Shown: in pieces, positions 1,772 through 10,736 of the stretch
Layout: each line of letters begins with the position of its first letter
Numbering within the stretch: the first letter of the stretch is position 1
IMG/VR virus record: IMGVR_UViG_3300042691_007824
Span: 1 to 26,986 of that record
Direction: 5' to 3' (one strand)
From: a virus
Length of the DNA stretch: 26,986 bases
Program-made: the position numbers and the translations under genes
Notes under the pieces: model-generated
Database searches by the model: none
What the model was told of the DNA's origin: nothing
The model's input: the letters and a program-made list of their open reading frames with translations, nothing else

Positions 1772-2065
1772 ATGAATGAACTTGACTTATTAATACGCAA
1801 AGCACAGCTATCTACTGTTTTGCATCGTGTAAAATTTGCACTTGATGACCTTGAGCAGAAAGCACCACACAAACAAGAACTTATAAAATCACAAAAGGAA
1901 AGTGTTAACGACCTTTTAGATGTACAAGAATTAGTTTATCATTTAGTAGATGAGAATAAAACGTACCGACTTAGAAACATAAGTTTAGAAAAAGCATTAA
2001 TTTTAAACGAAGTTGAAATGCAAAAGATGCGTGACGAAGTTGAATCAATAAAGCAGTTGTTATGA
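1772..2065 (+). CDS. Small coiled-coil protein of unknown function
   Basis: The product has 97 residues and is strongly helical, with heptad-like spacing of Leu and Ile along most of its length (ALDDLEQK, then SLEKALILNEVEMQKMRDEV near the C-terminus). No enzymatic motif or membrane segment is seen. It begins two bases after the ATPase stop and its TGA overlaps the next ATG, so it is part of the replication operon. It may be an oligomerising accessory factor, but nothing in the sequence shows this directly. Confidence 0.6.
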   Translation: MNELDLLIRKAQLSTVLHRVKFALDDLEQKAPHKQELIKSQKESVNDLLDVQELVYHLVDENKTYRLRNISLEKALILNEVEMQKMRDEVESIKQLL

Positions 2066-2271
2066 CACCAAAAGAAAAAGCAATTGAGTTAGTGGAAAAG
2101 TTTACTGATATTGAAAATGAATATAATGAATACTCAGACTTTAAACAAGCAAAACAATGCGCATTAATAGCAGTTGATGAATTAATTAACCAACAAGAAA
2201 AATATAATAATGGTAGTTTTTATCCTTCAAAGTATTGGCAAGAGGTAAAAAAAGAAATTGAAAAGCTATGA
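2062..2271 (+). CDS. Small acidic hypothetical protein
   Basis: The product has 69 residues, opening MTPKEKAIELVEKF, with a YNEYSDFKQAKQCALIAVDELI segment and C-terminal YWQEVKKEIEKL. Short proteins with this helical layout are common in Bacteroidota phages and prophages, but I know no function for them. Overlapping ATGA junctions with both neighbours show that it is translated as part of the operon. Confidence 0.6.
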   Translation: MTPKEKAIELVEKFTDIENEYNEYSDFKQAKQCALIAVDELINQQEKYNNGSFYPSKYWQEVKKEIEKL

Positions 2272-2480
2272 CACCACTAAACGAAGTAATGTTTCAGCTA
2301 CAAAAACACGAACTGAATAGAAGTTTAACACTACATAAAGGTTGTTACATACCAAACATTAAGAACACAGTAGAAAGTCTGTTAAACGTGCTTAAAAACC
2401 AAAAAGGAAATAGAGCTTATTTACCTTACTATTTTACGATTGTAAACATTTTAAAAAAATTGAATGATGAAAACAGTTAA
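2268..2480 (+). CDS. Small hypothetical protein
   Basis: The product has 70 residues, mostly helical and basic, with no recognised domain. Its start overlaps the upstream stop by four bases. Its 3' end overlaps the PAPS-reductase-like gene by 17 bases in another frame, so that gene was placed hard against this one. The DNA contains one copy of the AAAACACGAA motif (2303-2312), read here as Lys-His-Glu. Confidence 0.55.
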   Translation: MTPLNEVMFQLQKHELNRSLTLHKGCYIPNIKNTVESLLNVLKNQKGNRAYLPYYFTIVNILKKLNDENS

Positions 2481-4057: not shown

Positions 4058-4086
4058 TTGTGAATTAAAAATAATACGTATATTTG
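4058..4086 (+). promoter_or_regulatory. Bacteroidota-type promoter for the ERF operon
   Basis: TTG at 4058-4060 and TATATTTG at 4079-4086 are separated by 18 bases. The TTG and the first 16 spacer bases match the promoter at 6222 at all but one position (TTGTGAATTAAAA, then a variable base, then TAAT), so the two probably respond to the same polymerase or regulator. The start would lie near 4091-4094, some 15 bases before ATG 4109. Confidence 0.75.
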
Positions 4087-4108
4087 TAAAAATTAAAGTA
4101 AAAGAACT

Positions 4109-4618
4109 ATGAAACATTTATTTAAAGCATTGGCAGACTTTCAACAAGAAGTGCCAACAATCCACAAAGGGACACAAGGGTATGGCTATTCGTACAGCGA
4201 CCTTCCCGCAATTTTCAAAGTGATTAATCCGTTACTACAAAAACACGGTTTAGGATTCACTCAATTAATCAACTCACATGATGGACAAAACTATTTAACT
4301 ACGGTTATTTTTCATTTTGAATCAGGCGAAAAGATAGATTCTAATTGTTTAATTCCTTACGTGCCACTTAAAGGCATGAATGATTATCAATCTTTTGGTT
4401 CGGGTGTTACTTACTTCAGACGTTATGCTTTGGCTTCGGCTTTAGGATTAGTTACTGACAAAGATACGGACGCTTCAGGAGAACAAACAAAGCAACCTAT
4501 CAATGATGAGCGATTTATTAAAGCAATCGAAGCAATCAAACAAGGCAAAGCCAAAAAGACGGACTTAAACAAGTTTGAGTTAACAGCAGAACAAACTAAA
4601 GTAATAAGTGAGATATGA
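4109..4618 (+). CDS. erf: ERF-family single-strand annealing protein
   Basis: The product has 169 residues. The N-terminal 125 residues match the ERF superfamily: LFKALADFQQEVPTI, the loop KGTQGYGYSYSDLPAI, INPLLQKHGLGFTQ, and the signature QSFGSGVTYFRRYALASALGL followed by the acidic VTDKDTDASG. ERF proteins form rings on single-stranded DNA and anneal complementary strands during genome recombination or circularisation, as in P22. The C-terminal ~40 residues are a short charged tail. It has its own promoter and is followed, one gene later, by a YqaJ-like exonuclease, its expected partner. Confidence 0.9.
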   Translation: MKHLFKALADFQQEVPTIHKGTQGYGYSYSDLPAIFKVINPLLQKHGLGFTQLINSHDGQNYLTTVIFHFESGEKIDSNCLIPYVPLKGMNDYQSFGSGVTYFRRYALASALGLVTDKDTDASGEQTKQPINDERFIKAIEAIKQGKAKKTDLNKFELTAEQTKVISEI

Positions 4619-5019
4619 GACCGGTTAGAAAAGAAAGAAAAAACGTGACAAAAAAATATTTAGAGTTTTTGAACTTTTTAAAAAACGAAATAAATAACAA
4701 ACAGATAAATTCGTTAAGTGAAATTATGACAGAAAAAAAAGTATCTCGTAATTGGGGTACATTTTTAAGACAAAACAATATAATTTTTAAAAGCGAAAGC
4801 GGTTTTTATTATTGGAATGAAAAAATTCCCGTGTCAATTAAAATAGTAAATAAGTTTAAACACCAAAAACAAATACTAAATAAAAAACTGATTCAAAAAA
4901 ATCAAACTACAATAGTTTTCCATGATAAAGAAATAAAAAAATCAGTAGATAAATTCAAGCCTATAAAAACAGAACAAAAAGTAGGTGTTATACGTAAATT
5001 TTTAAAATGGCTATGGTAG
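4615..5019 (+). CDS. Basic AT-rich hypothetical protein
   Basis: The product has 134 residues, very rich in Lys, Asn and Ile, opening MRPVRKERKNVTKKYLEF. The segment VSRNWGTFLRQNNIIFKSESGFYYW at about 45-70 could be a winged-helix-like DNA-binding fold, but I cannot assign a family. A basic C-terminus ends RKFLKWLW. Its ATG overlaps the ERF stop and its 3' end overlaps the exonuclease start by 13 bases. Its base composition is more AT-rich than either neighbour, suggesting insertion of an accessory gene between the annealing protein and exonuclease. Confidence 0.55.
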   Translation: MRPVRKERKNVTKKYLEFLNFLKNEINNKQINSLSEIMTEKKVSRNWGTFLRQNNIIFKSESGFYYWNEKIPVSIKIVNKFKHQKQILNKKLIQKNQTTIVFHDKEIKKSVDKFKPIKTEQKVGVIRKFLKWLW

Positions 5020-5690
5020 TACGTTGTTCATCACTTGGTAAGATAATGACAGAGCCTCGCAGTAAGTCGGAATTGATTTCTGCTACTGCTAAATCTTACA
5101 TTGAGGAAGTATTCAAAGAAAACTACTTCGGGTTTCGTAAGGAGTTTAGTTCACGCTATACCGACAAAGGTTTGGAAATGGAGGACGAGGCTATACAGTT
5201 TGCAAGTGAGCAGTTCGATTGGGATTTTGTAGTTAAAAACACGAAGCGTTTCAATAACGAATACTTAACGGGAGAGCCTGACATAAACACGGATTCACTT
5301 TTAGCAGATATTAAATGCTCTTGGGACTTATCTACGTTTCCTATGTTTGACACCGAACTAAAAAACAAAGACTACTATTGGCAGTTGATGGGTTACTTAT
5401 ATTTGACGGGACACACTCAAGCTGAATTGGTTTACTGCTTAATGAACACACCTATTCAAATAGTTGAGGACGAAGTACGTAGGGCGCATTGGAAGGCCGG
5501 ACTAATTGACGAGGACATTGACTTGAGACATGAAGTTCAAATGAAGCACAACTTCGAACACATCGAGCCACGTTTAAGAGTAAAGCGTTTTATTGTAGAG
5601 CGTGACGAAAAGGCGATTGAAAAGATAATCGAGAAAGTATCAATAGCCCGAGAATATTATAAGATTTTAGAAACAGCAATTAACAAGTAA
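5007..5690 (+). CDS. YqaJ/lambda-exonuclease-like PD-(D/E)XK nuclease
   Basis: The product has 227 residues. The catalytic signature is visible in order: an N-terminal RCSSLGKIMTEP start typical of YqaJ proteins, KGLEMEDEAI with E58, GEPD at 89-92, ADIKCSW with D101 and K103, and YYWQLMGYLYLTG with Q126. This fits metal-dependent 5'-3' double-strand exonucleases that make the single-stranded tails used by ERF or RecT annealing proteins. The length is normal for phage exonucleases. It overlaps the AT-rich gene by 13 bases and is followed by an SSB-like gene, completing a two-component recombination system. Confidence 0.87.
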   Translation: MAMVVRCSSLGKIMTEPRSKSELISATAKSYIEEVFKENYFGFRKEFSSRYTDKGLEMEDEAIQFASEQFDWDFVVKNTKRFNNEYLTGEPDINTDSLLADIKCSWDLSTFPMFDTELKNKDYYWQLMGYLYLTGHTQAELVYCLMNTPIQIVEDEVRRAHWKAGLIDEDIDLRHEVQMKHNFEHIEPRLRVKRFIVERDEKAIEKIIEKVSIAREYYKILETAINK

Positions 5691-5702
5691 AAACAAATAA
5701 AC

Positions 5703-6005
5703 ATGAGTACAATTATCAGTGCAAGTATCGACCTTGCCAAAATCGACAAAAAAAGCATTTACGAGAAAGACGGTAAAAAATACCTATCGCTTCAAATTAG
5801 CGTGAATGACGAAACAAAATTCGGTAACAACGTAAGTATTGCAATAGGGCAAACAAAAGAACAGCGTGAGGCTAAAGCTGACAAAATCTATTTAGGTAAC
5901 GGTAAAGTAGTTTGGACTGACGGAAAGATTACACTTGCAGAAAAGCAAGAACAACCACAACCAGCACAACAAAAACACGAACCATTAAATGACCTCCCTT
6001 TTTGA
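5703..6005 (+). CDS. SSB-like single-stranded DNA-binding protein
   Basis: The product has 100 residues. The first ~75 are predicted beta-rich (SASIDLAKIDKKSIYEK, KKYLSLQISVND, NNVSIAIGQT, KVVWTDGKITL), compatible with one OB fold. A Gln/Pro-rich linker leads to a C-terminus ending EPLNDLPF, which resembles the acidic DDIPF tip that bacterial SSBs use to recruit partners. Its place after the exonuclease supports the call. Only the tail and size are strong evidence; the OB fold is inferred. Confidence 0.6.
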   Translation: MSTIISASIDLAKIDKKSIYEKDGKKYLSLQISVNDETKFGNNVSIAIGQTKEQREAKADKIYLGNGKVVWTDGKITLAEKQEQPQPAQQKHEPLNDLPF

Positions 6006-6232
6006 TGTTAAGCTACATTATAAGCATAGAGGAAATAACACGCAAAGAAATAGGCGACCACTTTGCAAGAACGTGCGAAAGCCCAAGAAGTCTTTGCAAA
6101 CGAGCGGGATTACAACAATCGCAGTTTAATAAGTTTCTAAAACACGAAGGCGGTTTAAACACTCAAACGCTTCAAAGATTAGGCAAAGCATTATTTAACA
6201 CAAATTATTCGCACAAAGGTATTGTGAATTAA
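6005..6232 (+). CDS. Small helix-turn-helix protein
   Basis: The product has 75 residues from ATG 6005, which shares one base with the upstream stop (TGATG). An upstream in-frame TTG at 6002 is possible but less likely. The region SPRSLCKRAGLQQSQFNKFLKHEGGLNTQTLQRLGKAL (about 27-64) has the pattern of an XRE-type HTH: a first helix, turn, recognition helix, then a Leu-rich helix. It is likely a DNA-binding regulator. The promoter at 6222-6250 begins inside its last codons, making it a candidate for local control. Confidence 0.6.
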   Translation: MLSYIISIEEITRKEIGDHFARTCESPRSLCKRAGLQQSQFNKFLKHEGGLNTQTLQRLGKALFNTNYSHKGIVN

Positions 6233-6250
6233 AATTAATGTATATATTTA
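6222..6250 (+). promoter_or_regulatory. Bacteroidota-type promoter for the accessory region
   Basis: TTG at 6222-6224 and TATATTTA at 6243-6250 are separated by 18 bases. The -7 box lacks the final G of TANNTTTG. The upstream half is nearly identical to the promoter at 4058. The expected start is near 6255, at the first base of the hairpin at 6254-6277. Confidence 0.65.
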
Positions 6251-6253
6251 CAA

Positions 6254-6277
6254 ACGGGTAGCAATTCAGTTGCCCGT
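6254..6277 (+). promoter_or_regulatory. 5' leader hairpin
   Basis: ACGGG (6254-6258) pairs with CCCGT (6273-6277), and CAA (6262-6264) with TTG (6270-6272), with TAG bulged and a five-base loop. No T-run follows, so it is not a terminator. It lies at the predicted 5' end of the transcript and 14 bases before ATG 6292, and could stabilise the mRNA or tune translation. Confidence 0.5.
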
Positions 6278-6291
6278 AAAACTTACGTAAA

Positions 6292-6618
6292 ATGAACAAA
6301 GAACTAAACATTTGCAAAGAATCTACAATGTACGATTCTAATTTCGAAGTAACATTTCAATTAAACGGTTTGGAGTATTGGTGTAATGCCTATGTAAGAT
6401 ATGACCATGACGGTTGTTACTTAACAGACCATGACTTTACTTTTGAGTTAGAGCCTTTTGATTTTGATGACATTCAAAAACACGAACTAATTACATCTAT
6501 TGACGAATACTTTAGTAATAAATACGCTGATGACTACCTACAAAAACACGAATCAGACGCATACGATTACTACGAGCAATGTAGAGAAGATGAATCAATA
6601 GAGAATAAATACCTATAA
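6292..6618 (+). CDS. Acidic hypothetical protein
   Basis: The product has 108 residues and is strongly acidic throughout, with many Asp, Glu and Tyr (VRYDHDGCYLTDHDF, LEPFDFDDIQKHEL, DAYDYYEQCREDE). No catalytic motif or membrane segment is seen. Small acidic phage proteins in accessory regions are sometimes DNA mimics that block host nucleases or repressors; that is only a possibility here. It has its own promoter and leader hairpin. Its stop codon is the first base triplet of the 58-bp repeat. Confidence 0.6.
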   Translation: MNKELNICKESTMYDSNFEVTFQLNGLEYWCNAYVRYDHDGCYLTDHDFTFELEPFDFDDIQKHELITSIDEYFSNKYADDYLQKHESDAYDYYEQCREDESIENKYL

Positions 6619-6673
6619 AGTATAATTATTGTACAGCAGAAAAGTATAACAATTAAATCAGAATAAGATGAAA
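6616..6673 (+). repeat. 58-bp direct repeat, copy 1
   Basis: It is 58 bases long, identical to 7144-7201 except for two substitutions, and ends in the start codon and second codon (ATGAAA) of the following gene. It contains AAAGTATAA twice (6617 and 6641, 24 bases apart) and the near-palindrome GTATAAT-T-ATTGTAC (6620-6634), which look like regulator half-sites. No TANNTTTG box is present. Confidence 0.85.
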
Positions 6674-7123
6674 AGTAGTAAAGAAAAAATGCTGTATTCA
6701 GCAAAGAAAATGAGAGAGATATTAGCATCTATTGAATCTATATTAGATGGATATGAAGGAATTGAAGGTAATAAATCATACGTGAGTTATTGTATTAACA
6801 AAGTAAAATTGGCAAATGAAGATGATTTAAAATTGAAACAGTTGTACGATGATACATTTAACGTAGATATGAATCAACGAAAAGCAATTAATATTGCAAC
6901 ACTATTAAATATTATTGAAAAATACTTTAAACTACTTGATGACATTGATACGGCAAGTGATATATTTAAACCAACTTGGTGTAAAATTACAAGTGTTGTA
7001 AGTAAGTTACAAAGTTTGCGATGGTTGTATTGCACATTTGATATTGATATAAACGAAGAAGATAATATGATTATAAACGGAGAATGTTTCAAAAGAGAAG
7101 AACGAATCATTTTATCACTTTAG
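6668..7123 (+). CDS. Hypothetical protein on a repeat-flanked segment
   Basis: The product has 151 residues, mainly helical, with no recognised domain (MKSSKEKMLYSAKKMREI at the start, a DDIDTASDIFKPTW segment near 100). There is no signal peptide or membrane segment. It is AT-rich and lies exactly between two copies of a 58-bp repeat that each carry a start codon. Recombination between them would remove this gene and join the same leader to the next gene. It therefore behaves like an exchangeable accessory gene; its job is unknown. Confidence 0.6.
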   Translation: MKSSKEKMLYSAKKMREILASIESILDGYEGIEGNKSYVSYCINKVKLANEDDLKLKQLYDDTFNVDMNQRKAINIATLLNIIEKYFKLLDDIDTASDIFKPTWCKITSVVSKLQSLRWLYCTFDIDINEEDNMIINGECFKREERIILSL

Positions 7124-7143
7124 TAGTATTGTGCCTAAAACAG

Positions 7144-7201
7144 TAAAGTATAATGATTGTACAGCAGAAAAGTATAACAATTAAATCATAATAAGATGAA
7201 A
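7144..7201 (+). repeat. 58-bp direct repeat, copy 2
   Basis: This is the second copy of the sequence at 6616-6673, differing at two positions (G for T in the near-palindrome, T for G before the start codon). It ends in the ATGAAA of the small membrane protein gene at 7196. Because it reproduces leader and start codon, both genes should share the same control. Confidence 0.85.
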
Positions 7202-7351
7202 CAAGAAACTAAAGCATGGATTCTGTTAGGCTCAATCTTTTTAGTGTTTATTACTTCAATACCAAAAAAGCAAGAAAAACACGAACCAAAGCAGAAAGAA
7301 ATATACGGTAACTATGAAAGGTTACCTGATAGATATTACGAATTGAAATAG
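7196..7351 (+). CDS. Small single-span membrane protein
   Basis: This short frame of 51 codons starts at the ATG of repeat copy 2. The product begins MKQETKAWILLGSIFLVF, giving a hydrophobic span at about 8-25, followed by a basic, Glu-rich tail (KKQEKHEPKQKEIYGNY). One Met-start, one transmembrane segment and a cytoplasmic or periplasmic charged tail are all that can be said. It is followed directly by an intrinsic terminator, which supports it being the last gene of this transcription unit. Confidence 0.55.
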   Translation: MKQETKAWILLGSIFLVFITSIPKKQEKHEPKQKEIYGNYERLPDRYYELK

Positions 7352-7377
7352 ACCAAGTTTAAACACTTGGTTTTTTT
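7352..7377 (+). terminator. Rho-independent terminator
   Basis: ACCAAG (7352-7357) pairs with CTTGGT (7366-7371) around an eight-base loop, followed by a run of T to 7377. It begins immediately after the TAG of the small membrane protein and ends the accessory unit. Confidence 0.8.
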
Positions 7378-7400
7378 ATTTAAAAAAAGTTGTATATTTA
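7367..7400 (+). promoter_or_regulatory. Bacteroidota-type promoter after the terminator
   Basis: TTG at 7367-7369, inside the terminator stem, and TATATTTA at 7393-7400 are 23 bases apart, the long end of the accepted spacing. The next ATG is at 7415. It would start the transcript that runs through the sigma-like regulator toward the packaging genes. Confidence 0.6.
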
Positions 7401-7414
7401 CGAAAAATTTATAT

Positions 7415-7672
7415 ATGGAAATAGTTTTATTAGTAGCGTTTGCATGGTGGTTTGTTAAATTTGAGCCTTTGCACTTCTTAATCGATTATACTTTTGAGTG
7501 GTTTAGACCTACTTTTTTAAATAATTGGGTGCATCACTCTTTATCATGTTACAAATGTGTGGGGTTTTGGTCTGCTTTAATCATTACGGGCAACTTTTTT
7601 ACTGCTTGTCTCGTTTCATTAATATCTTACACATTTGATTTATGCTTACAGAAATTGACATCGAATATATAA
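7415..7672 (+). CDS. Small membrane protein with Cys-Tyr-Lys-Cys motif
   Basis: The product has 85 residues from ATG 7415 (MEIVLLVAFAWWFVKFE); an in-frame TTG at 7367 lies in the terminator and promoter and is rejected. Hydrophobic spans lie at about 2-15 and 50-75, with CYKCVGFWSALI between them. This resembles the C-x-x-C-x-x-FW motif of DUF1360-type small membrane proteins, but the match is by eye. It is the first gene of its unit; its 3' end overlaps the next gene by 31 bases. Confidence 0.6.
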   Translation: MEIVLLVAFAWWFVKFEPLHFLIDYTFEWFRPTFLNNWVHHSLSCYKCVGFWSALIITGNFFTACLVSLISYTFDLCLQKLTSNI

Positions 7673-7848
7673 ACTCAATACGTTTACAATCGCAACACGT
7701 TCAAGAATCGAAAGCGGTTTTAAACAAACTGAAATCGATAAAAGAACGGATCACAGGCGAGAATTTTACAAAATGCTTTTGTTCTGCTGTGGTAAGACGG
7801 AACTATCTCAAAGATTTTTACACTTGGTATGAAAGTAATCTTAGATAA
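7642..7848 (+). CDS. Small hypothetical protein
   Basis: The product has 68 residues, helical, opening MLTEIDIEYINSIRLQSQHV with a C-terminal CFCSAVVRRNYLKDFYTWYES. It overlaps its upstream neighbour by 31 bases and its downstream neighbour by 20 bases, each in another frame. The Cys-x-Cys and aromatic C-terminal stretch occur in small proteins upstream of regulators in flavobacterial phages, from memory only. Function is unknown. Confidence 0.55.
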   Translation: MLTEIDIEYINSIRLQSQHVQESKAVLNKLKSIKERITGENFTKCFCSAVVRRNYLKDFYTWYESNLR

Positions 7849-8386
7849 CTACCTAAATAACCACTATAACGAAGTAGAACGATACACTCACTACTTCTTA
7901 CATAGGTTAAAACTGAATTTAGATGTCAGTTCTGTAATCAACAACGCCTATATTAATTACATTGACCACCAATCTCAAGGCAAAACACCTACAATCGAAC
8001 ACGAAGTAAGCTACTATTTTAGCCACTTAATTAAGTGCGAGTTATTGTGGACTTCAGAAAGCAAAAAAGAGTTGATCACAAGCGTTGAAAATCACTATTT
8101 AGCGGATGAACAAATAGAAAGCGACAGCATTATAATTGACACCACGACAAAAAGACGGAAGATAATACTTGAGATATATAGAAACAGCTTAGAATCAAAA
8201 GTAAAACGCATATTTTTTGACACGTTTGTAAGACTGTCAGAGCAAAAAGGAAAACCTTTTACCATTCGTGAGTTAGCAAATCACTTCAATATCTCGATAG
8301 GCACAGCACACAACATGGTAAAGGAAATAAGAAACGAAATAAAAGAAATACAGAAATTCATAAATTCAAATAGTCATGAGAATTAA
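7829..8386 (+). CDS. Sigma-70-like or HTH transcription regulator, candidate late activator
   Basis: The product has 185 residues. The C-terminal part (about 125-175) has a sigma region 4-like helix-turn-helix: KPFTIRELANHFNISIGTAHNMVKEIRNEI. The N-terminal part is helical and could correspond to a divergent region 2. Such proteins in phages often switch on packaging and structural genes. It lies two small genes before the terminase genes, fitting a late regulator. The HTH is clear; sigma identity is a moderate inference, and a plain HTH activator is possible. Confidence 0.6.
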   Translation: MKVILDNYLNNHYNEVERYTHYFLHRLKLNLDVSSVINNAYINYIDHQSQGKTPTIEHEVSYYFSHLIKCELLWTSESKKELITSVENHYLADEQIESDSIIIDTTTKRRKIILEIYRNSLESKVKRIFFDTFVRLSEQKGKPFTIRELANHFNISIGTAHNMVKEIRNEIKEIQKFINSNSHEN

Positions 8387-8603
8387 AGAAGAATACAAAG
8401 GGAAAACACTTGTCGTTAATGACGGGATTCTTGGCGAACTTAGAATCGAAGTTGATAAGATCAAACCAAGCCAACGTACTTGGATTATGGGCATGGGATT
8501 CGGTTACATTTTTTATAGCGAAAAGTTTACGGGTATTGAAGAAGAAAAACCTAAAAAAACACGAACTAAAAAAGTGAAACCAGTAATAGACGAAGACGAA
8601 TGA
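8376..8603 (+). CDS. Small basic-tailed hypothetical protein
   Basis: The product has 75 residues: a beta-rich N-terminus (KGKTLVVNDGILGELRIEVD), a WIMGMGFGYIFYSEKF segment, then a charged tail (EEEKPKKTRTKKVKPVIDEDE). Short proteins of this type are frequent before terminase genes in Bacteroidota phages, from memory. The last codons encode the AAAACACGAA motif in the Lys-Thr-Arg frame. The TGA overlaps the next ATG. Confidence 0.55.
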   Translation: MRIKEEYKGKTLVVNDGILGELRIEVDKIKPSQRTWIMGMGFGYIFYSEKFTGIEEEKPKKTRTKKVKPVIDEDE

Positions 8604-8776
8604 GATACTTTGTAATTTGTGTAGGGGATAACATGAAACAAAGAGGCTATCAGATTATTGAAATGATAAAGGACAGCACTACACACATAGTCGAATACGA
8701 ACTAATAGACGAACCAAACAGTATCTTATTAGACGAGATCAGCGAAGATGAATTTTTAGCACATTACAAACTATAA
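8600..8776 (+). CDS. Short hypothetical protein of 58 residues
   Basis: The product has 58 residues and begins MRYFVICVGDNMKQRGY; it ends DEFLAHYKL. The ATG overlaps the upstream stop (ATGA) and the TAA is 11 bases before the small terminase ATG. Sizeable spacing and codon use fit a real gene, and the frame is open with no other gene covering it. No domain is recognised. An AAAACACGAA copy (8776-8785) fills most of the gap before the terminase start. Confidence 0.6.
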   Translation: MRYFVICVGDNMKQRGYQIIEMIKDSTTHIVEYELIDEPNSILLDEISEDEFLAHYKL

Positions 8777-8787
8777 AAACACGAACA

Positions 8788-9207
8788 ATGGGAAAACACA
8801 AATACATAGAGACACCAGATAAACTCTTTGAACTATTCCAACAATACAAAGCAAGCCTAAAACCAAGAGAAATACAAAAGGCAACAGCAGCTGGAGTAAA
8901 GTCAGAGTTTCACACACCGCCCTTGACCTTAGAAGGGTTTGAAAACTTTTGCGAGGAAAATATAGGATGCGTTCACCAATATTTTGAGAATCGAGATAAT
9001 AGATATTGCGAGTATGTGACTATCTGCTCACGTATAAAGCGATTAATCCGTCAAGACCAAATTGAAGGTGGTATGGTAGGGCAATTCAATCCAAGCATCA
9101 CACAGCGTTTAAATGGACTTACTGAGAAGACAGACGTAACAACAAACGGAAAAGAAATAAGCAAAATCGAAATTCAGATTGTAACGAATGAAAATCAAAT
9201 CGACTAA
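8788..9207 (+). CDS. terS: Small terminase subunit-like DNA-packaging protein
   Basis: The product has 139 residues and resembles the gp3-type small terminase/DNA-packaging family: ETPDKLFELFQQYKASL, LTLEGFENFCEENIG, ICSRIKRLIRQDQIEGG, then FNPSITQRLNGLTEKTDV. These proteins form rings that recognise the pac or cos site and regulate the large subunit. The next gene encodes the large terminase and overlaps it by 20 bases. The C-terminal ~25 residues are beta-like and end ISKIEIQIVTNENQID. Small terminases diverge fast, so position contributes to the call. Confidence 0.8.
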   Translation: MGKHKYIETPDKLFELFQQYKASLKPREIQKATAAGVKSEFHTPPLTLEGFENFCEENIGCVHQYFENRDNRYCEYVTICSRIKRLIRQDQIEGGMVGQFNPSITQRLNGLTEKTDVTTNGKEISKIEIQIVTNENQID

Positions 9208-10336
9208 AATATTCCAACAAAATTGGGAAGCATTAAATAGCGAGAATAGATTTGTAGTTAATCAGGGGGGGAGTAGGTCATCAAAAACTTACTCCCTTTG
9301 TCAGTTAATTATAGTATGGTGCTTACAAAATCCCAATAAGGTAGTGTCGATAGTTAGAAAGACATTCCCCGCTTTACGTGCTACCGTTATGCGTGACTTT
9401 TTCGAGATCATGAAAGACCTTGAGATTTACGATAAGTCTAACCACAATATGAGCGAGAATATTTATAAGTTTCCAAATGGTTCGATAGTAGAGTTCTTTA
9501 GTGTTGATGACGAGCAAAAGATTAGAGGGCGAAAACGTGACTTAGGTTGGTGTAATGAAGCGAATGAACTTTGGTTTGAGGATTTCCAACAGCTAAATAT
9601 GCGTACTGAATCAAAAATGATATTCGATTACAACCCTTCAGATAGTGCTTCATGGCTTTACGAACTACCAAAAGACGAAACGACCGTAATAAAATCCACA
9701 TACAAAGATAATCCTTTCTTGCCGGAGTCGATTAGAAGACAAATAGAGGACTTAAAACGAACAGACGAGGCCTTATATCAAATCTACGCTTTAGGAGAGA
9801 GAGCGATAAGCAAACAGAACATTTATAGCAATTGGAACTTCATTAAAGAAAGACCGCTCAGATTCCAATCGTTTGTTTATGGACTTGACTTTGGTTACAA
9901 TCACCCGACCGCACTTATCAAAGTATGGCATAATGAAAAGGACTTATACATCGAGCCGATTATATACGAAAGTTATTTAACTACTTCGACATTGATTCAA
10001 AAGATGCAGGATTTAGGGATTGATCAAAACACGGATATACTTGCCGATTATTCACGACCTGAAATAATAGCCGAAATGCAAATCGCAGGATTCAACGTAA
10101 ACAACGCAAACAAAGAAGTAAAAAAAGGAATTGACGATGTTAAGACTTTCGGGGTTTTCTGCAAAGACGACCCTAACATGAAGCGAGAGTTCGATAACTA
10201 CAAATGGCGTAAGGTAGGTGATACGATAACGGATGAGCCTGTAAAGTTGTTTGACGATGCTATGGATGCTATACGATATGCTACACGCTTTATAAAAGAA
10301 ATGTACTACACCGATAACGCTTATATAACGTTCTAA
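9188..10336 (+). CDS. terL: Large terminase subunit
   Basis: The product has 382 residues. The packaging ATPase has Walker A GGSRSSKT at 27-34 (phage-type with Ser) and a Walker B/catalytic carboxylate stretch LGWCNEANE at 119-127. The nuclease domain shows YGLDFGYNHP with D234, ILADYSRPE with D287, and a C-terminal DDAMDAIRYA with D357 and D360, matching the RNase H-like headful/cos nuclease. The length is normal for a siphovirus TerL. It translocates DNA into procapsids through the portal encoded at 23459-24802, over 13 kb away. Confidence 0.95.
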   Translation: MKIKSTKIFQQNWEALNSENRFVVNQGGSRSSKTYSLCQLIIVWCLQNPNKVVSIVRKTFPALRATVMRDFFEIMKDLEIYDKSNHNMSENIYKFPNGSIVEFFSVDDEQKIRGRKRDLGWCNEANELWFEDFQQLNMRTESKMIFDYNPSDSASWLYELPKDETTVIKSTYKDNPFLPESIRRQIEDLKRTDEALYQIYALGERAISKQNIYSNWNFIKERPLRFQSFVYGLDFGYNHPTALIKVWHNEKDLYIEPIIYESYLTTSTLIQKMQDLGIDQNTDILADYSRPEIIAEMQIAGFNVNNANKEVKKGIDDVKTFGVFCKDDPNMKREFDNYKWRKVGDTITDEPVKLFDDAMDAIRYATRFIKEMYYTDNAYITF

Positions 10337-10367
10337 TGTACAAACGAAATTCACAAACATTATAGTC

Positions 10368-10736
10368 ATGGATAATACATTTAAAAACTGGGTGCAAGAA
10401 ATAGCAAACGTGTTAGGAGAAACGACTACGAATGGCGATTGGTGGCAAACGATAGCGGGACACTTTGGCATTGTAGCTGAAAATGGAAACTATCAACAAG
10501 CGTTGTGTACTTACTTTGATGCAAACATAGACTTAGGCGAAAGTTTCATTCAGGCTTTAGCTGAGGACTTCGGTGCTACGGGGACTGTGAACGGTTCTTG
10601 GATTGAGGCTTTAGCGTCTGAGATTAGCGCAACGATGACATTGATTAACACTTTTAAAACACGAATAGCAACGGATAGCGGAACAGTAGAAGCTGAAAAT
10701 TGCTTATTACAAACATTAAATAATTTAGAAATATGA
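10368..10736 (+). CDS. Repeat protein with about seven 18-residue units
   Basis: The product has 122 residues. The sequence breaks into roughly seven units of 17-19 residues: NTFKNWVQEIA, NGDWWQTIAGHF, NGNYQQALCTYF, GESFIQALAEDF, NGSWIEALASEI, INTFKTRIATDS and NCLLQTLNNL. Each has an aromatic or Leu, a short helix with Ala and Leu, and a turn often starting NG. This suggests a small helical solenoid. Its TGA overlaps the start of the receptor-binding protein, so it may be a virion adapter or its chaperone. No family is recognised. The ATG follows CATTATAGTC, a leader shared with 23112. Confidence 0.6.
   Translation: MDNTFKNWVQEIANVLGETTTNGDWWQTIAGHFGIVAENGNYQQALCTYFDANIDLGESFIQALAEDFGATGTVNGSWIEALASEISATMTLINTFKTRIATDSGTVEAENCLLQTLNNLEI

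Follow-up and report, generated by a model that had tools for sequence, protein, structure and literature searches.

We consider it likely that a 58-nt leader, present twice in the window (the whole 26,986-nt stretch of viral DNA analysed here), is a start-associated joint where ordinary recombination between repeats swaps genes in and out whole. The element would be a start-associated leader common to a set of phages, its A-rich and unstructured 3' half serving as a translation-initiation region, and since the leader or its ~20-nt tail precedes many small accessory genes, it would also provide a run of homology. An exonuclease and an annealing protein could recombine leaders or leader tails, between co-infecting phages or within one genome, and one gene would be gained, lost or exchanged whole, the unit reaching from its start codon to the next one, and a gene that comes in would automatically have a functioning start region before it. 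The predicted exchange unit of the window is the ORF at 6668-7123 plus one leader (Table 1). That recombination or annealing is the agent, in which direction and at what rate it acts, and that the leader functions in translation, we infer; the leader could also be kept for expression alone, the swaps being incidental. Gain and loss of small phage genes of unknown function are seldom visible at base level, and here a candidate joint can be seen that would be used by several unrelated phage backbones.

Table 1. Leader copies, neighbouring genes and recombination genes in the window
Feature	Position	Strand	Remarks
ERF-family single-strand annealing protein	4109..4618	+	PF04404, E 6e-27
Phage exonuclease	5007..5690	+	phrog_5715
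Small protein adjoining exonuclease	5703..6005	+	conserved in backbone groups B and D
Upstream small gene, fixed, 108 aa	6292..6618	+	stop codon overlaps leader copy 1
Leader copy 1	6616..6673	+	two AAAGTATAA boxes 24 nt apart, AATTAAATCAGAATAAG tail, ATGAAA
508-nt block identical to L003/L019 (other backbone)	6647..7154	+	
151-aa gene, putatively swappable	6668..7123	+	absent between leader flanks in L017
Leader copy 2	7144..7201	+	
51-aa next small gene	7196..7351	+	directly behind single leader in L017; homolog in L038 array
Terminator-like stem, then T run; right end of cassette operon	7350..7373	+	

The two copies in the window are spaced 528 nt apart and have 2 mismatches (97% identity). 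Exact direct repeats in the window reach a length of 33 nt, compared with a mean of 15.6 nt and a maximum of 19 nt in 60 dinucleotide-preserving shuffles, which excludes a chance origin of the window repeat. The initial annotation had described copies of 58 bp with two differing bases, each ending in the start codon of a gene. Length and differences were given correctly and an ATG is indeed present in both (6668 and 7196), but AAA follows it in either copy and the repeat extends 3 nt beyond the start codon. The doubled half-sites that had been seen in the repeat are likewise there, as two boxes in direct repeat.

Pattern scans of the viral collection together with a profile search of the loci yielded 24 leader copies in 20 viral contigs, window included, after removal of chance pattern hits (L020, L022, L063) and of duplicate or near-duplicate loci (L001, L003, L005-L007, L009, L010, L016, L023). 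Every copy lies on the strand of the following gene, with the start codon at its end; behind one copy, L021:3222, stands only a 7-codon ORF. Among the copies listed, all 17 with paired boxes have a box spacing of exactly 24 nt, and in paired-box copies the ATG comes 24-29 nt past the start of the second box motif. Leader matches were found in 18 of the 20 records searched whole; those above 24 bits fall at one locus per record, in 1 to 3 copies. When 20 of the 24 copies were aligned (L018:6523, L027, L030 and L031 excluded), conservation across different backbones was evident at the nucleotide level. Heads and tails of the leader appear to be reshuffled, head GTATAAY.ATTGTA and head CTATAACAATTGAAC each being found in these 20 copies with tail AATTAAATCAGAATAAG and with tail TAAACAACAAGAACA, the fourth combination from a single contig (L060). 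The tail alone (AACAASAAYAATG) is present in 15 of 20 records; the window's record, whose tail is the other one, is not among them.

A host or prophage origin of the leader was considered and rejected: in a collection of genomes from 84,980 species the two-box pattern had one match, in a Mycoplasma chromosome, which we take as chance. Cultured phages matched the leader at chance level only (best E 0.04 among the matches listed, which come from 15 of 30 records) and gave no DNA match to window 1-24999 and no match to the 151-aa protein or to the 63-aa L025 protein. In the record of a related phage, MW202828 (L096), the equivalent position is likewise occupied by small genes. The literature searched contained no paper about the leader, outside which most subscription papers lie. 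The terminase of the window is similar, always at <60% identity, to terminases of many phages, those of Bacteroides, Parabacteroides and Flavobacterium phages among them; because of these resemblances a Bacteroidota host is likely, and the leader-bearing phages probably infect Bacteroidota.

Behind this leader stand different genes. At 16 loci, BLASTP placed the genes directly behind the first leader in 10 unrelated clusters (the analysis covered 17 loci, without L002, L027 and L030, and at L031 the ORF filter removed the gene that follows the leader). These 10 clusters behind a shared leader support the proposal of the initial annotation that this is a modular cassette site for accessory genes. 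It had named as refuting a single copy with no cassette variation in any relative, or a leader never followed by different genes, and the relatives showed neither. The cassette genes themselves have almost no family matches, and swappable phage genes might be harvested by looking behind the leader. In backbone group A (L018, L019, L060 and L054) a DUF3127 gene, a small gene and the leader are held in common before the contigs diverge, the gene behind the leader encoding a 115-aa protein in L018, a 43-aa CxxC protein in L019 and L060 and a 66-aa protein in L054. L018, L060 and L054 rejoin at a common right-flank gene (cluster 9) and therefore contain a variable block between fixed flanks. The group-A upstream gene is present in 5 contigs, one of which (L068) has no leader. 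Group E (L037, L045 and L047) has a common left flank up to the leader (89-95%), followed by three different genes, and L045 and L047 have the right flank in common as well. In L054 the right-flank gene (10446-10625, reversed locus) resembles a fusion of an N-terminus of the MKQPNKDEIEKL cassette family with a body of the KSKLTGDIFKDGE.. cassette family, and exchange may therefore also cut inside genes. Elsewhere, a C-terminal segment (..KSQKESVNDLLDVQELVYHLVDENKTYRLRNISLEKALILNEVEMQKMR..) is found in different small-gene combinations at window 1772-2480 and L002 4183-5050, apparently a further sign of small-gene shuffling.

The ends of the blocks that contigs have in common point to the same sites. 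With 42 shared blocks of >=90 nt in 17 loci, 14 of 70 block ends lie at a start-associated site in both partners and the remaining 56 elsewhere; 500 shifts produced 0.87 such ends on average and never more than 5, a control that is not perfect because the loci were picked for carrying the leader. Joints in the arrays are also found at the ~20-nt tail alone.

Single units recur on other backbones. Over ~280 nt bounded by the leader and the next start region, L038 and L045 are 95.7% identical, with different flanks, and L029 and L047 have in common a 38-aa gene between two start regions (87%). The window itself is identical to L003/L019 over the 508-nt block of Table 1 and otherwise has no DNA match to them beyond leader copies; L019 could be an assembly chimera, since each end of the block is inside a repeat and the contig stops at that point, and we do not lean on this case. 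Such cases raise the question of whether false joins or collapses caused by the repeats might explain the pattern, L002 and L019 ending in or just past the leader and 508 bases of L019 being identical to the window. We regard an assembly artefact as very improbable, because units at 95.7% and 87% identity are impossible from a false join of one template, L045 and L047 agree on the right as well as on the left, and the window holds both copies, 2 differences apart.

Consistent with exchange of whole genes at the leader, contigs also differ by the presence or absence of one gene. L017 has one leader and no 151-aa gene, and matches window 6005-6673 and 7144-10477 at 91-94% identity on both sides. 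The initial annotation had predicted that crossing over between the repeats would delete 528 bp; the expected one-leader form without the 151-codon gene exists in L017, which may have arisen by such a deletion but could also represent the ancestral state or a repeat collapse by the assembler. The L002 contig stops shortly after a leader, within the first bases of the 151-aa gene. At a second, related site with a single box, a 65-aa gene is present in 9 of 10 contigs (L034, L036, L040, L041, L043, L046, L050, L053 and L056) and missing from the tenth, L048, exactly between two AAAAACAAA(A)GTAAAAATGAGT-like start-region copies, which mark the join, just downstream of an exonuclease-like gene; here, too, the shorter form could be ancestral or a repeat collapsed by the assembler. 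Homologs of the 151-aa protein at 60-70% occur in other viral contigs without the leader; L004, L008 and L011-L015 have homologs and no leader copy, and the gene is therefore not tied to the leader. This protein had no Pfam, PHROG or PADLOC match, and its AlphaFold model, computed with an alignment of 7 of 14 sequences (query and 13 loci; L003, L014 and near-duplicates excluded), has a mean pLDDT of 59.9.

As regards the control role that the leader may have, we infer a translation-start region as the better-supported reading. In the leader tail, A occupies positions -3, -6, -12 and -13 in 20/20, 20/20, 19/20 and 19/20 copies, compared with 16, 18, 23 and 23 of 35 other window genes from a hand-chosen ORF list. 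According to PMC6847099, A at these four positions is a positive determinant of translation start in F. johnsoniae; in this respect the leader resembles a Bacteroidota translation-start region, and its last ~15 nt fit the Flavobacterium optimum given there. The TAHHTTTG motif, taken from the same paper, is absent from the aligned leader copies. The initial annotation had also pointed to a near-palindrome, which comes down to TGTACA in 8 of the 20 aligned copies and hence is not conserved, the other copies having TGAACA, TGTAAA, TATACA or TAAACA at this position. Since, in addition, 0 conserved base pairs were predicted in the 20 copies and 6606-6700, folded as a single strand, does not stand out (z -1.83), we rejected a near-palindrome or RNA structure as a conserved feature of the leader. 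A sigma-70 promoter was rejected as well, 6000-7600 containing 10 sigma-70-like sites against 9.5 in shuffles, although an unknown phage promoter type would lie outside such a scan.

These features bear on the reading that the leader is purely regulatory, being a phage promoter, operator or mRNA element under selection, while gene turnover is ordinary mosaicism in which the repeat takes no part. The exact box spacing in 17/17 pairs with a near-fixed distance to the ATG, the nucleotide-level conservation across backbones and the regulon-like set of unrelated genes behind the leader all fit such an element. Against it, block ends lie at leader or start-region sites far above the shifted controls, head and tail variants are reshuffled, and neither an excess of sigma-70-like sites nor structure was detected. 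We therefore think it unlikely that regulation is the whole explanation; these points oppose regulation alone, not regulation itself.

All 20 aligned copies have one reading frame that stays open from the first box onwards and meets a stop at -14 to +1 of the next ATG, in 19 of them within -7 to +1; a stop so placed would allow coupling. The leader might accordingly be coding, either as the C-terminus of the upstream gene or as a small uORF ending ..KSITIVQQKSITKQQEQ and coupled by a stop/start overlap (ATGA), and in L018:5984, L037, L045, L047 and L054 the open frame is the end of the upstream gene. The copies are homologous, however, so that 20/20 does not amount to 20 tests, and in 10 of the 20, both window copies included, no ATG precedes the leader in that frame, which opens only inside the leader or just before. 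Moreover, L021:3222 is read in another frame (M-TQTAVKYNNYTAEKYN), and the C/T variation in the box is synonymous in one of the frames but changes the residue in the other. A coding leader is, on these grounds, quite improbable. In several contigs, including the window, nothing upstream is read into the leader frame, so it seems to be the nucleotide sequence, and not a peptide, that is kept as the conserved feature of the leader.

To return to exchange at a shared leader, candidate enzymes are encoded nearby (Table 1), among them a small protein that we take to be probably an SSB. In searches of 17 of the 21 records, exonuclease phrog_5715 was found in 11, lying 0.5-1.9 kb upstream of the leader in 10 and ~7 kb downstream of it in the record of L037, and ERF exceeded the cut-off in 5 (the window and 4 others). 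Phage integrase (PF00589; positive controls 14/14) and resolvase were each found in 0/17 of these records, which may be fragments. With no integrase or resolvase, an exonuclease near the site and ERF, homologous recombination or single-strand annealing would be the simplest agent of the exchange.

Integron cassettes are one-gene units in an array between fixed flanks, with a repeat at each joint, and the arrangement described here, one-gene units arrayed between fixed flanks with a repeat at the joints, could suggest an integron-like site-specific cassette system in which the repeat is the recombination site. We give this reading hardly any credence: IntI belongs to the tyrosine recombinases (PF00589) of which the possibly fragmentary records have 0/17, resolvase is equally missing from them, the repeat forms no attC-like hairpin, the ~20-nt tail alone also serves as a joint, and the repeat lies on the 5' side of the gene. 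The boundary sequences of lambdoid phages, short homologies at gene borders that direct modular exchange, are another parallel, and differ in that here one identical leader sequence serves many different genes. Beyond the joint itself, it is conceivable, though we hold it rather doubtful, that these phages have a gene-cassette system with the leader as universal landing joint beside an exonuclease/annealing module, that is, integron-like arrays without an integrase. If so, a gene from any phage of the network could be captured with its translation start already fitted. The visible joint offers a direct means of asking whether cassette arrays are built by phage recombination genes.

Two systems described in other phages come closest. 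In T4-type phages, PeSLs (promoter early stem-loops) are mobile regulatory cassettes (Arbiol 2010 and Comeau 2014, as cited in PMC4503421), short repeated regulatory elements that lie between small genes and mediate gene shuffling. Like them, the leader sits among small, variable genes and delimits shuffled units. Unlike a PeSL as described there, it has no stem-loop terminator, given the lack of conserved pairs and the ordinary fold, and it ends at a start codon, in other phages with other hosts; as for the early promoter of the PeSL, the leader has neither more sigma-70-like matches than shuffles nor TAHHTTTG, an unknown phage promoter being possible. In cluster K mycobacteriophages, PMC3203893 and PMC12699233 describe SAS/ESAS, an asymmetric sequence directly upstream of the start codons of many gene families, nearly all in one orientation and about half with a longer upstream extension. 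Our leader is likewise conserved, asymmetric and directly upstream of start codons of different families, and occurs as a short, SAS-like tail alone or with the two-box extension. It departs from these descriptions in its A/T-rich consensus, unrelated to the SAS consensus GGGATAGGAGCCC, and in boxes that form a 24-nt direct repeat with no conserved pairs instead of the 17-bp imperfect inverted repeats of ESAS; SAS/ESAS are also many over the genome, whereas the leader has few copies at one locus, with apparent exchange at the site. By analogy, then, the leader would act like PeSL or SAS/ESAS yet fails the defining sequence and structure features given for them, and we regard it as a new form of repeat-mediated modular exchange located at gene starts. 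Start-associated repeats would then be known also from phages whose hosts do without Shine-Dalgarno sequences.

Two further observations concern the window at large. Similar 33-nt stretches at 4058-4090 and 6222-6254 resemble Bacteroidota promoters (TATATTTG-like -7 element) and might drive transcription of the recombination operon and of the cassette operon. Between 2304 and 16302, AAACACGAA is among the commonest 9-mers, with 12 occurrences on the + strand and 0 on the - strand, and AAAAACACGAA occurs 8 times against 0.12 expected. The AAACACGAA motif, perhaps a Chi-like polar motif, falls in every one of the three reading frames and has one intergenic occurrence, and its strand bias is also seen in L017 (7:0), L002 (6:0, coding sense) and L047 (6:0).
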